The notes under the pieces: model-generated
Told to the model about the DNA's origin: nothing
Seen by the model: the letters and a program-made list of their open reading frames with translations, nothing else
The model's database searches: none
In this document: piece by piece, positions 7,596 to 19,525 of the stretch
How the letters are laid out: the number at the start of each line of letters is the position of its first letter
Numbering within the stretch: position 1 is the stretch's first letter
Position numbers and translations under genes: made by a program
Origin: a virus
IMG/VR virus record: IMGVR_UViG_3300045973_000831
Coordinates: 1 to 21,913 of that record
Length of the DNA: 21,913 nt
Strand: one strand, 5' to 3'

Positions 7596-8765
7596 TCAGG
7601 CGCCGATGCGGGCGGCGAAGTCGGCCAGGTAGCGATCAGTGATGCGCTGGCGGAACATGAGGTTTTCGAGCGGCGGGACCGGCGTGTAGTCGTAGTCGAT
7701 GTACAGCTTGCCGGACTTGAGGGTGACTTCATCATTGACCGAGGCGTCGTACCAAGCGGAGCCGTCGATGAGGTAGCCGAGTGCTTTGAGTTCGCGGAAC
7801 TTGGCATTGACGCCTTCGAGGATGTCTTTGACGAGCGATGGGTTGAGCGGCTTATCGACCGCCCACAGGTGCGCTTCGGCGATGGTGTCCATCAGTACCT
7901 GGGCAGTGCGGGTGTAAGGCTCGAAGGCAAATAGTGGATCAGCCGAGCAGGTGCGCGAGCCCCAGAAACGGTAACCATCGCGACAAATGAGCGTGGTGAC
8001 TTGAGCGGCGTTGAGGAAGCCGGTGTCAGTCGCCGGGTCTTCTAGATCGAAAAATACATCCTTACTGATGCCGGTGACGCCCTGGACGGGGATATTGGAG
8101 AGCGACTTGTGCCAGCCGATCTCGTTGTCAATCTGGGCGCGCAGGCCGAGGGCACGGGCGACGGCAGGGGTTGAAACAGTGGCGCTACTAGCGCTATCCC
8201 ATGCCTTGAATTCCGGCCAGATGACCATGACTTCGCGGGCGCCGAAGTTGGCGCGGTAGGTGGCGGCGGCTTCCTTGGTGGCGGTGCCGGCCTGTACATA
8301 GGCAAAGCCGCGCAGCTTCTTGGCGAGCGCGACCAGCTCAGTGGCCACTGGCAACGTGTCGAGGCCGGGAACGCCCAGGATGCGCGGTTTGATGCCGAAC
8401 TTTGCTTGGGCAGTGAGCAGGGCTTTCATGCCGGTATATTGGCCACCGGCGGTGACGGTGCCGATGACTGCCGTATTTGTGGCGGCGTCATCGGCACCGG
8501 GTGCAACGCGGACAATGATGCAGGCCGGGCTGCCGTGGTCGGCGATGGCATCGAGCGTCTTAGCTAGCGTGCCGAGGGTGCCGGCCTTGCCGATGGCACT
8601 GAGCACATCAGTGATCAGGACGGCGGTATCAAGCGGGAAGGCTGCTGCATCGGCGTCCGGTGCGGTGGCGACGATGCCGATGATGGCGGTTTCAATGGTG
8701 CGGATGGGGCGACGGCCGTCGGAAAGTTCGACGACGCGTACCCCGTGATGGTAATCGGCTGGCAT
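7596..8765 (-). CDS. FI: P2 gpFI-like contractile tail sheath protein
   Basis: 389 aa (P2 FI is 396). Polymerises around the tail tube and contracts on infection. Recognisable stretches: [18 protein letters not shown] opening, [47 protein letters not shown], the [20 protein letters not shown] motif near residue 275 and the C-terminal [17 protein letters not shown]. Start is the ATG with AGGAG seven bases upstream. It is the first gene of the FI-FII-E-E'-T-U-D operon, and the 120-bp gap before it carries the candidate late promoter. Confidence 0.98.
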
Positions 8766-8796
8766 GGGTGGCTCCTGTCTTGTAGGTGCTGCCCAT

Positions 8797-8856
8797 GTTG
8801 CCGGTCATACGCGCGCGTGTCTTGCGCTGGTGGTCGTAACTGGCTTGGATACGACT
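8797..8856 (-). promoter_or_regulatory. Candidate late promoter PF with activator inverted repeat
   Basis: Plus-strand GGTCGTA (8832-8838), 11 bases, TACGACT (8850-8856) forms a dyad; a TATGAC box (minus strand, 8809-8804) lies with its last base exactly 40 bp from the dyad centre and is preceded by CGCGCGCG. The identical layout precedes V. P2 late operons start at V and FI from promoters without good -35 boxes, activated by Ogr bound near -55. The site sequence here differs from P2's TGT-N12-ACA. Start site at about 8797 is inferred. Confidence 0.65.
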
Positions 8857-12226: not shown

Positions 12227-12561
12227 TGGAGCGGGTAGGCGATGCTGACGCGCTGGCCGGCACGGGCGCCGGTGCGTTTGGTGGCAGAAATATCGAGTTC
12301 TGCCGAGCCATCCATTTCTTGAGCGATGAAAACGCTGGTGATGACGAGGCGCGGCTCCCAGCGCAGGATGGCCATGACGGTGGCGGACTGCAGGCGTAGG
12401 CGGTTGGCATGGTTGCCCGGATGGTCGATGAGATCAGGCAGCAGCGAGCCGTAATCGCGGCGCTCGATGCGGGTGCCTATCGGCGTGCTGAGGATGTCGG
12501 CAACGGACTGGTGAATGTGCTCGTCTTCCGTCATTGGCTGACCGGTCTGGCGATTCATCAT
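12223..12561 (-). CDS. W: P2 gpW-like baseplate protein (gp25 family)
   Basis: 112 aa (P2 W is 115). Member of the T4 gp25-like lysozyme-fold baseplate family: SVADILSTPIGTRIERRDYG, then GSLLPDLIDHPGN, the core of the family and its EPR motif at RWEPRLV. These proteins join the wedge to the sheath initiator. Two adjacent ATGs (12561 and 12558) are possible; the first overlaps the V stop as ATGA. Ends overlapping J. Confidence 0.95.
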   Translation of the reverse strand: MMNRQTGQPMTEDEHIHQSVADILSTPIGTRIERRDYGSLLPDLIDHPGNHANRLRLQSATVMAILRWEPRLVITSVFIAQEMDGSAELDISATKRTGARAGQRVSIAYPLQ

Positions 12562-13172
12562 GTTGGGCCGCCGGTATTCCCGCCACCGGGGTAAACGCCG
12601 GTGTGCGTGTGCGTAGCCAGGACGATGCCATTGCTGCTGAGGCTTCCACCGGTATGGGTGAAATTGCCGATGATGGCGTTGTTATTGGCGCCACCGGTGC
12701 CGTTGATGCCGTTGCCGTAGGTGAGCAGGTCATCAGCGGTTAGCTTGCCTGTGCAGTGAGTGAGCGGGGTGTTGAGGATGATTGATTCGCTGGCGCTGAT
12801 TGCGGCGGTGACCATGCCGGAGATCTCCAGATGGCTGCTGGCGTGGTCGTAGGAAAATACTGCGCCGTCCGGAAACTTGATGACATGCTTGGCCAGATCA
12901 TGACTGGGCGTGTCGATCAGGTCAGACGGGGCCCCATAGATGATCATGCCCTGGGCGATTTCTCCGGAGGGGGAGAGGACAACGCATTGTTCGCCGATTG
13001 TTGGCGGGTTCCAGGTGGTTGTCTCGCCGGCGCGAGATTCGATCCAGCGTAACCAGTCGGTGATGATCTGGCCGCTTTGGACGCGGGCGCGCTTGGCCTG
13101 ATGGTCAACGGAATGAATGGTCCCGAAGCGGATCAGGTTTTCGACAAGGCGGGAGAGTTCGGCGATATCCAT
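12558..13172 (-). CDS. V: P2 gpV-like baseplate spike, membrane-piercing tip
   Basis: 204 aa from ATG 13172 (P2 V is 211). Trimeric spike that punctures the outer membrane. N-terminal OB-fold region: LVENLIRFGTIHSVDHQAKR, then VQSGQIITDWLRWIESRAGE and PTIGEQCVVLSPSGE; then beta-helix triplets (GMVTAAISASESIILNTPL) and the apex FTHTGGSLSSNGIVLATHTH with the HxH pair that holds an iron ion in P2 gpV and phi92 gp138. An in-frame ATG at 13193 would give 211 aa, but it lies inside a block also found, non-coding, before FI (likely promoter). Neither ATG has a clear ribosome site. First gene of the V-W-J-I-H operon. Confidence 0.93.
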   Translation of the reverse strand: MDIAELSRLVENLIRFGTIHSVDHQAKRARVQSGQIITDWLRWIESRAGETTTWNPPTIGEQCVVLSPSGEIAQGMIIYGAPSDLIDTPSHDLAKHVIKFPDGAVFSYDHASSHLEISGMVTAAISASESIILNTPLTHCTGKLTADDLLTYGNGINGTGGANNNAIIGNFTHTGGSLSSNGIVLATHTHTGVYPGGGNTGGPT

Positions 13173-13181
13173 GCCGGCGAT

Positions 13182-13241
13182 GATGCCGGTCATACGCGCG
13201 CGAAGGGAGCGCCGGCGGTCGTAGCAAAACCGCTTACGACC
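13182..13241 (-). promoter_or_regulatory. Candidate late promoter PV with activator inverted repeat
   Basis: Plus-strand GGTCGTA (13217-13223), 11 bases, TACGACC (13235-13241): a perfect 7-bp dyad. On the minus strand a TATGAC box (13194-13189) preceded by CGCGCGCG lies with its last base exactly 40 bp from the dyad centre, the same geometry as upstream of FI. V is where the P2 PV operon starts. No good -35 hexamer is seen, as expected for activator-dependent promoters. The inferred start near 13182 leaves a very short leader before the ATG at 13172. Confidence 0.65.
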
Positions 13242-13714: not shown

Positions 13715-14179
13715 TTAGCCGGCACCTATCGGCACGCCCTTGAGGTAGATTTCCCAGCCGGTTGGGCCGGTGAGATCGGGTAGCGGTGGCTCGTTGATGT
13801 GTTCGCACTCATAGCCGGCGGCGGTCGGTTTGACTAGCACGCGCTCGGAGAGCTCGAGCGTGAGTTCGATATCGACTTTGTCGTGGTCGATCAGCTCAGC
13901 CTTGAAGGTGACAAGGTTTTCGCGCAGCTTTTCGTCGAACAGCAGGTTGGGCTGGTGCTGGCCGATCCAGACCATCAGGGGGACAGCCAGAACGTCCGGA
14001 CTTTCGGCGAAGTCGGTGATCAGCAGTTGTACCTGGTAGCGATATTCAAAGGACAGGCTTTTGCCGTAGCGGGCGACGATACGGCCAGTCTCGATAAAGA
14101 CGTGCAGCTTGTCCGGATTGGCGGCTAGGTCGGGTACCCACTGGGTGAGATGGGCGCGCAGGTCGATGGGCTTTTTCAT
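13715..14179 (-). CDS. R: P2 gpR-like tail completion protein
   Basis: 154 aa from the ATG overlapping the spanin stop as ATGA (P2 R is 155 aa). Matches the family through KPIDLRAHLTQWVPDLAANP, then KLHVFIETGRIVARYGKSLS, FEYRYQVQLLITDFAESPD and DIELTLELSERVLV. Needed for joining head and tail. The same frame is open to an ATG at 14215, but the coupled start matches the family length. Confidence 0.94.
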   Translation of the reverse strand: MKKPIDLRAHLTQWVPDLAANPDKLHVFIETGRIVARYGKSLSFEYRYQVQLLITDFAESPDVLAVPLMVWIGQHQPNLLFDEKLRENLVTFKAELIDHDKVDIELTLELSERVLVKPTAAGYECEHINEPPLPDLTGPTGWEIYLKGVPIGAG

Positions 14180-16961: not shown

Positions 16962-19430
16962 TTAACCCCATGCCTTAACAGCGACGAAACCGAAAGTTGA
17001 TACGGCACCCTGCGCCGTGACCACCGGCCGGATAAAAGCGGCGGCGACATTACCGACAGTGACCTGAACCGTGCTGTTAGCAACCCCCGCCAGCGTAGAA
17101 CCGGGGATGTCATACCAGCTATTGCCATCTTCCGAGCCTTGCAGCTTGAACGATGCGGGTGTCGTCGATGCGCCAAGATTAAGAATCATCTGAACATTGC
17201 TGCATCCTTCGGAGAACAACACTGCAGTGCTCGCCACCGTAGCAACCGCTGCGGTACTGAGTGTGCTCGTGTAGTCAAACACCCGGCGGATCGGCTTGAC
17301 CGTCGTAAAAGGCCACGTTGTGCGATTGATTGAGCGAGTAATGCTTGCGCCATAAACCAGCGTATGAACGTAGCGAATATATCGGCCGATGGCTTGCAGG
17401 ATCGGGGATCGGTACGCGCCATTCGCTGAGATGCGCGGGAATTGATACGTCGTGACCCAGTTGAGATTGTCTTCAGATTCTTGAATCGAAATATCAACGA
17501 CGCCCGATCCGTTGATCGCTGTCACCGGAATTTCAACCTGATAGCCGCTTCCCAGATCATTTGACGCAGCGGGTGTCGTTGTGACGGTTCCTATCGCCGC
17601 AGCGGCCGCATCAGCCAGTACCAAGATTCCAGGACGCACGTACCAAGCGTTAGCGCCTGATACGCCATTCAGCGTAGTTCCCAATCCCTGTGTCGCGGTT
17701 GATCCGACAGCGCTAACCACCGCAACAGGCAGTGCTTTATCGAGTCGACCCGTACCCGCACCGTCAAGCATCACACGATGCTCAGTCCATTCTTCGACCG
17801 ATACATCATGTATCCGCAGACTCGGCGCAAGGATGATAGAGCCGCCCACCGTAGCCGCCGCCGTATTCGGCACAGGGGAAATACGATTGCCGTAGATGTC
17901 GTAGATCGGCAGAAAATAGGCATTGGTGCCGGCTGATGTAGCAAGCTTCCACAAGCCATCCATATTGGGATCAATGCCGTTGCCCAGGGCGCCGGTGATG
18001 AGGTAGTTACCCGCCATTTCCAAACCCGCCCAGGCGCTTGATCCCACTAAGCGCAGCACCCCCGTGGCGACGTCGTAGGTCCCCGCTACGATGTTATTTG
18101 CTACAAGCCCAGGTTGGTCAAAGGCACTATTGCAAAGGTGCACGCTACCGCCGTTAGACGTTGCGATGACCGCAGTGCCGTGCACAATCGAAAACGAGGT
18201 ATCGCTGAGCCAAGTGATCGGTGTTGAAGTCGTAATCGCGGCGAAATTGACTTGATCCAGCACGCCTTTGATCGTGATGGCCTCACCGTTTACTAGACCA
18301 TGCGGCTCTTTTGTCACGATGACTGCCGTAGCGCTGCCTGATTTTGTAATCGTTAAAATCCGTGCAACCGGGCGCGGCAGCGATTTGGGCATTTGCAAAT
18401 AAAAGCGTGGAGAAAGCGCCTTGTCCTGGCTCGGTTTAACTGTCGACCGAACCACACGTGGCGTAAACACGCCGCTCGAATCAACGGCGCAATCCAAAAT
18501 CGCTGACTCATCAACCCGGCTTTCAAAGCGAAAACGGGAGATGGGTTTAATCTCAATCAAACCGTAATTACCGGCCGCTGTATTGACTGCGCTACTAGCA
18601 AATGCCGTTCGCTGATCGGAGGTCAGCGAGCCTGAAATCTGGCAATCGCCCTCTCCCATTTTCGTAAAAGCGGCGGCATTACCTATGCTACTTGACGAGA
18701 AGCGCAGCCCCACCGCGTGAGTGGCACCCATTGCGTTGTTGAAGAAGCTGATCTTCATCGTGCCGGCCGGCGGCGTCTGCAGGGCGATGGCCGTGCTGGT
18801 ATTCAAAATGGTTTCGTCAACGTAATTGAGGATGAGGCTCTTGCGGTCAAAATCAATGTGCCGAATCGCCGCATTGAACATCGTTTCGTTGGCGTTGCCA
18901 TTACCCGCCGTTGTCTTTGCGCCTGAAATGCAAACCCAATCACCCAGATGCACTGACGTAGGCAGCGCAACTTCGAGCGTCAGGTGAACAAAGGTCCCGG
19001 CTACCCCGGTGTTTGCGCCGATGTAGTCTGCATTATCTTGATACCAAGAGGTCACGTTGATCGGGGAAGGGAGTACATCCAGCGGATCGCCAAAGTTACC
19101 CAACACGGCCCCGGCAAACCAACCTCGGGCGCGACCTGAAAAAGCCAGTTCGCACTCCATCGCCATCGGCATTACGGCGGCTTTTTTGAAATCGAGGTAA
19201 GACAGTTGATCTTCATAGCGCGGATCAGCGACCAGCGCGACGACGGCCTGACCGTTTTCAGTACGACGAAAAGTGAGGCAGTGATTCGGTGCGATGGTCG
19301 GCTTGTACTTTATCAACACCTCGGAGAGGATTGTTACATCGTCTGGGGTGTAATTCACTTCTCCTGAAGTCGGTACGACGTCAGGGCGGTAGAGTTCTTT
19401 TGTATCTCTATCAATCAGGAACACGGTCAT
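16962..19430 (-). CDS. Large beta-rich structural protein inserted between M and L (putative head decoration/adhesin)
   Basis: 822 aa from ATG 19430; a TTG at 19481 with AGGACTG upstream would give 839 aa and has better ribosome spacing, so the start is open. Opening: TVFLIDRDTKELYRPDVVPT. Residues ~357-430 form a 'TxxPHGLxNGxxxTIKGV...' module (EPHGLVNGEAITIKGV ... WLSDTSFSIV) common in phage surface proteins. The C-terminal ~180 residues hold two discoidin-like units, each with an 'ESED/GSEDG..NW/SWY' turn (VDISIQESEDNLNWVTTYQF and FKLQGSEDGNSWYDIPGSTL). There is no signal peptide or membrane span. Canonical P2 has nothing here. Placement among head genes suggests a capsid fibre or decoration with carbohydrate-binding tips; this is inference. 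Confidence 0.8.
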   Translation of the reverse strand: MTVFLIDRDTKELYRPDVVPTSGEVNYTPDDVTILSEVLIKYKPTIAPNHCLTFRRTENGQAVVALVADPRYEDQLSYLDFKKAAVMPMAMECELAFSGRARGWFAGAVLGNFGDPLDVLPSPINVTSWYQDNADYIGANTGVAGTFVHLTLEVALPTSVHLGDWVCISGAKTTAGNGNANETMFNAAIRHIDFDRKSLILNYVDETILNTSTAIALQTPPAGTMKISFFNNAMGATHAVGLRFSSSSIGNAAAFTKMGEGDCQISGSLTSDQRTAFASSAVNTAAGNYGLIEIKPISRFRFESRVDESAILDCAVDSSGVFTPRVVRSTVKPSQDKALSPRFYLQMPKSLPRPVARILTITKSGSATAVIVTKEPHGLVNGEAITIKGVLDQVNFAAITTSTPITWLSDTSFSIVHGTAVIATSNGGSVHLCNSAFDQPGLVANNIVAGTYDVATGVLRLVGSSAWAGLEMAGNYLITGALGNGIDPNMDGLWKLATSAGTNAYFLPIYDIYGNRISPVPNTAAATVGGSIILAPSLRIHDVSVEEWTEHRVMLDGAGTGRLDKALPVAVVSAVGSTATQGLGTTLNGVSGANAWYVRPGILVLADAAAAAIGTVTTTPAASNDLGSGYQVEIPVTAINGSGVVDISIQESEDNLNWVTTYQFPRISANGAYRSPILQAIGRYIRYVHTLVYGASITRSINRTTWPFTTVKPIRRVFDYTSTLSTAAVATVASTAVLFSEGCSNVQMILNLGASTTPASFKLQGSEDGNSWYDIPGSTLAGVANSTVQVTVGNVAAAFIRPVVTAQGAVSTFGFVAVKAWG

Positions 19431-19525
19431 TTCCTTTTTTGGTGGGCGGTGGTCGGCAGGCACTGGCGTCAAAGGAGTCAACCGTCAGTCCTGCCGAGCC
19501 GCCCAGGTGCGGGGTCCGCTCTTTG

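Follow-up and report, generated by a model that had tools for sequence, protein, structure and literature searches.

Gene content and the two dyads

The window, by which we mean the whole 21,913-base stretch analysed, is the entire virus record IMGVR_UViG_3300045973_000831. Late genes of the P2-like type lie on its minus strand, and the record stops within O. With letters given by homology and by order relative to P2, the genes run as partial O, N, M, L, X, lysis genes, R, S, V, W, J, I and H, then a short gene without an assigned function, and then FI, FII, E, T, U and D. Used as a query, the V protein of the window returned only eight distant relatives, ∼40% identical. An 839-residue open frame lies between the head genes M and L (16962–19481, minus strand). 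It has no PHROGs match, and towards the C-terminus it gives F5/8 type C (galactose-binding-like) matches that are weak and sub-threshold; it possibly encodes an added virion surface protein.

The operons that begin with FI and V are both preceded by the dyad GTCGTA-N11-TACGAC, which on the minus strand reads GTCGTA tccaagccagt TACGAC at FI and GTCGTA agcggttttgc TACGAC at V. Downstream of each dyad comes a CGCGCGCG tract and then TATGACCGGCA. An identical inverted repeat before both genes had been reported in a first-pass annotation, and we find exact copies at these two places only in the window (Table 1) and none in 100 dinucleotide-preserving shuffles of it. The same annotation placed a TATGAC box 40 bp from each dyad centre. 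The distance is indeed equal at the two sites, with 40 bp separating the dyad centre from the far edge of the box and 37.5 bp separating the two centres.

A search for further copies in the window gave one dyad with two mismatches at 14063–14085, within tail gene R, which we rejected as a third site; 0.36 such matches (at most two mismatches) are expected by chance. Searching viral contigs with the complete promoter (dyad, GCG, CGCGTATGAC) yielded no match. Scanning for GTCGTA-N11-TACGAC-N5-GCG gave 22 stretches, which we take as chance occurrences, since only one of them (L155) holds a P2-like tail gene set and the match there sits within the tape-measure gene.

Table 1. Coordinates of the two genes and of the predicted promoter elements upstream of them
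Feature	Coordinates	Strand	Evidence
FI, tail sheath protein	7596–8765	−	phrog_23, E 2.2e-130; PF04984
V, baseplate spike	12558–13172	−	PF04717 and PF18715; start at ATG 13172 backed by relatives
PF activator-site dyad, GTCGTA-N11-TACGAC (= GTCGT-N13-ACGAC)	8833–8855	−	Exact; Ogr-type site at matching place in relatives
PV activator-site dyad, GTCGTA-N11-TACGAC	13218–13240	−	Exact; matching place in relatives
PF −35-like hexamer, AAGACA	8818–8823	−	Weak, spaced 17 bp from the −10; T and G preferred at family columns +10 and +12
CGCGCGCG tract, PF spacer	8810–8817	−	Sequence; enriched in relatives
CGCGCGCG tract, PV spacer	13195–13202	−	Sequence; enriched in relatives
TATGAC at FI, not the −10	8804–8809	−	Absent in 98 relatives; −2.61 bits
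TATGAC at V, holds ATG 13193	13189–13194	−	Absent in relatives
Predicted PF −10, CAACAT	8795–8800	−	Conserved cAnnaT column, 7.15 bits
Predicted PV −10, CATCAT	13180–13185	−	Conserved cAnnaT column, 8.07 bits

Conservation of the site among relatives

For comparison we collected 80 viral loci and 80 bacterial-genome loci that encode relatives of FI. Most carry a dyad before FI and V at the matching place, with the core TGTA-N11-TACA (that is, TGT-N13-ACA), and many carry it also between O and P, where it is common to these divergent genes. This comparison of related prophages, proposed as a check in the first-pass annotation, thus places an Ogr-type site at matching positions before both genes. 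The window dyad is in register with these sites: GTCGT-N13-ACGAC is the GTTGT-N13-ACAAC class with one symmetric T-to-C change, at the first T of each half, giving a core of CGT-N13-ACG.

Similar sites are known from other phages. The stated consensus for P2 is TGT-N12-ACA (PMC3931495), and the late promoters of the Ralstonia phages RSA1 and RSY1 carry TGTTGT-N13-ACAACA (PMC5694545). The Ralstonia sites share with the window the N13 spacing and the GTxGT-N13-ACxAC arms before late operons; they differ in that each half of the window site has C instead of T at the start of the inner TGT. P2 differs from the window in its N12 spacing and T, as against CGT-N13-ACG with the CGCGCGCG tract in the spacer. 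In a published analysis of Burkholderia phage AP3, one of the P2-like phages of GC-rich hosts, no conserved motif for phage promoters was reported (PMC5247547).

A predicted −10 element downstream of the dyad

We aligned 98 dereplicated sites from the relatives by the dyad alone, leaving the −10 out of the alignment. This anchor favours TGT-like dyads, and conservation within the dyad is therefore inflated. Past the dyad, the strongest conservation falls at columns +33 to +38, as cAnnaT. In these sites, which were dereplicated at 75–80% identity and are still kin by descent, A at +34 is accompanied by T at +38 in 89 of the 98, compared with a median of 2 for other pairs of columns four apart. 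The conserved hexamer sits 9 bp downstream of TATGAC, which would put the dyad centre near −56. From this −10, which a weak −35 precedes by 17 bp (AAGACA at PF and the poor TCCCTT at PV), the centre is predicted to lie near −55/−56 from the transcript start. PF and PV of P2 (NC_001895) are alike in this respect, with the same genes and a dyad centre near −55/−56, and the −10 of P2 PV, CAATCT, has its A and T in places matching the −10 of the window.

The first-pass annotation took TATGAC as the promoter box and proposed that a diverged Ogr-like activator of new specificity recognizes the dyad. We regard this model, with TATGAC as the −10, as quite improbable. The hexamer does stand at an equal distance from the dyad in both promoters and matches TATAAT at four of six bases, but it is found in none of the 98 relatives and scores −2.61 bits at +24, versus 7.15 and 8.07 bits for the hexamers nine bases on. 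With TATGAC as the −10, moreover, the dyad would fall near −47, versus −55 in P2. TATGAC is also a common hexamer, occurring seven times in the window where 4.9 are expected.

The start of V

In 50 of the 53 V sites of relatives, an ATG occupies columns +45 to +47, equivalent to ATG 13172 of the window, at which V apparently starts. The upstream ATG at 13193, inside TATGAC, is probably not the V start; the relatives give it no support. In the P2 record, the V transcript starts at the A of the V ATG, and the V transcript of the window is predicted to do likewise. Because the relatives keep the ATG at +45 to +47 and the P2 transcript starts at its own ATG, a leaderless V message is likely a feature that this phage has in common with P2. 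The P gene of five relatives (L119, L133, L138, L149 and L152) has its ATG 7 nt past the −10 of the P promoter (CAGCAT), and P may also be leaderless in these loci.

The CG tract in the spacer

The first-pass annotation had noted a tract preceding both TATGAC boxes. The CGCGCGCG tracts are present at both sites, and tracts of this kind are enriched in relatives. Within +13 to +34, CGCGCG or GCGCGC occurs in 41 of 63 sites at FI and in 26 of 52 at V, where ∼1.3 would be expected in each for the same loci. The alignment behind these and the following counts uses the −10 in part. At +39 to +60 of the same sites, neither hexamer is found. Among loci with at least 62% GC, the tract is present in 25 of 27 FI sites and 19 of 25 V sites. 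In GC-rich relatives the enrichment is thus ∼20–30 fold and position-locked; the tract is rare in AT-rich relatives. Many P and O promoters of relatives have it too, and visual inspection showed it at the FI site of Pseudomonas phage Dobby. In a small search of the open-access literature we found no account of it, and given the enrichment its role becomes a testable question. Our guess is that it might act as a barrier to activator-independent opening.

Base changes in the half-sites

In relatives, 120 of 131 left half-sites, and as many of the 131 right ones, have T at the base that is altered in the window; these sites were picked without using that base, and the counts partly use the −10 for alignment. 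Among sites with a convincing −10, the window alone has C in both halves, and it has it at both promoters; C in all four half-sites is not seen in any of the 131 sites of relatives. This is a point in favour of a diverged activator. Single C half-sites, however, occur in close relatives. In L176 (MAG SZAS-76), whose FI is 81% identical, the FI site reads GTCGTA-N11-TACACC and the V site GTTGTA-N11-TACATC. In L202 (Azonexus sp. R2A61), GGCGTA-N11-TACACC stands before both FI and V, and the O–P interval holds GGAGTA-N11-TACACC. L180 (Denitromonas) has a single C half-site at each of two places, upstream of V and between O and P, and L065 has a single C half-site, before V. All four keep T in their remaining half-sites. 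The first two prophages are among the closest known counterparts of the window, sharing the FI/V layout, the CG tract, a −10 at FI (CACCAT) and one half-site with CGTA; they differ in that the other half-site keeps TGTA and in having no TATGAC.

Because C (or A) and T are mixed within one phage, a single activator seems to accept both C and T in each such relative. The re-targeted activator proposed in the first-pass annotation is probably not needed to account for the window sites, whose register and outer arms match the TGT-N12/13-ACA class but whose core is CGT-N13-ACG. The T-to-C substitution is by itself minor. It is conceivable, though we consider it unlikely, that the Ogr of this phage has shifted to CGT-N13-ACG in all half-sites and that the CG tract in the spacer is functional, for example as an opening barrier that enforces activator dependence. 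If true, this combination would make a promoter layout that has not been described in P2.

A model for the two probable promoters

In this fragment of a P2-like phage, the two sites are very probably the late promoters PF and PV, with an Ogr/Delta-type activator acting on the dyad and a −10 of the cAnnaT type. The first-pass annotation had reached the same identification of PF and PV, with which the P2-like gene order, the sites before FI and V in relatives and the many sites between O and P agree. The position and register of the dyads, the conservation of site and −10 across relatives and the enrichment of the CG tract were observed directly. According to this model, an Ogr/Delta-type zinc-finger activator, encoded outside the record, would bind the dyad ∼56 bp upstream of the transcript start and recruit host RNA polymerase to an intrinsically weak promoter. 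Such a promoter would have a poor −35, a 17-bp spacer with an alternating CG tract and a −10 of the form cAnnaT. The dyad itself would be a variant of TGT-N13-ACA with C replacing the first T of each half. Transcripts are predicted to start ∼22 nt before FI and at or adjoining the V ATG, the latter giving a leaderless V message. Binding by Ogr and its contact with the alpha subunit of RNA polymerase are carried over from P2, in which that contact is tied to suppressors of rpoA109 (PMC11434276); use of the two promoters in this phage is likewise a prediction. Counting against PF and PV are the C in all four half-sites, unique versus the 131 sites of relatives, the lack of ogr in the record, which runs 2 kb past D whereas L202 has the gene at 1.5 kb, and the poor −35 of PV. 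The alignment offers a usable late-promoter layout for P2-like phages of GC-rich hosts, consisting of the dyad, a weak −35, the CG tract and cAnnaT, with the V gene beginning at the predicted transcript start.

Past D, in the place that ogr occupies in P2, the window has plus-strand genes (647–1948) for a small protein, a helix-turn-helix protein (921–1520) and a DUF6941 protein; the first three plus-strand genes past D had no match among the fetched relative loci. With no ogr in the record and a helix-turn-helix gene in its place, another regulator such as this protein might replace Ogr on the dyads. This is very unlikely: the site retains the Ogr-type register, spacing and most bases, and in two close relatives Ogr genes lie past D at distances of 1.5 and 2.3 kb, while the window stops at 2 kb.

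Least probable of all is that the dyads are RNA hairpins, acting as terminators or attenuators at operon ends; each does lie downstream of the final gene of the operon before it and could form a stem of 6–9 bp (−5.1 and −8.5 kcal/mol), but relatives keep the outer TGT/ACA with a freely varying spacer and a fixed distance to the −10, and the terminator reading in particular was rejected on the missing T run after the dyad and on the dyads that the divergent O and P genes share in many relatives.

Ogr genes in relatives

No ogr gene was found within the 21,913-base record, which ends 2 kb past D and inside O. Ogr-family genes were found in 44 of the 65 related records or genomes searched, including L202, with ogr 1.5 kb past D, and L003, with ogr 2.3 kb past D. 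The Ogr proteins of these two agree at 78 of their first 90 positions, and their sites carry T, A and C. No simple rule linking the type of Ogr sequence to the C variant therefore emerged. The Ogr gene in the genome of L176 lies on another contig, on which none of the seven window proteins used as queries had a match, and for this reason it cannot be assigned to the L176 prophage.

Paired Ogr-family matches within one open frame were seen in two genomes: L273/L275 in the genome of L208 (210 codons) and L271/L276 in the genome of L179 (272 codons). This pairing resembles the double zinc finger of P4 Delta.
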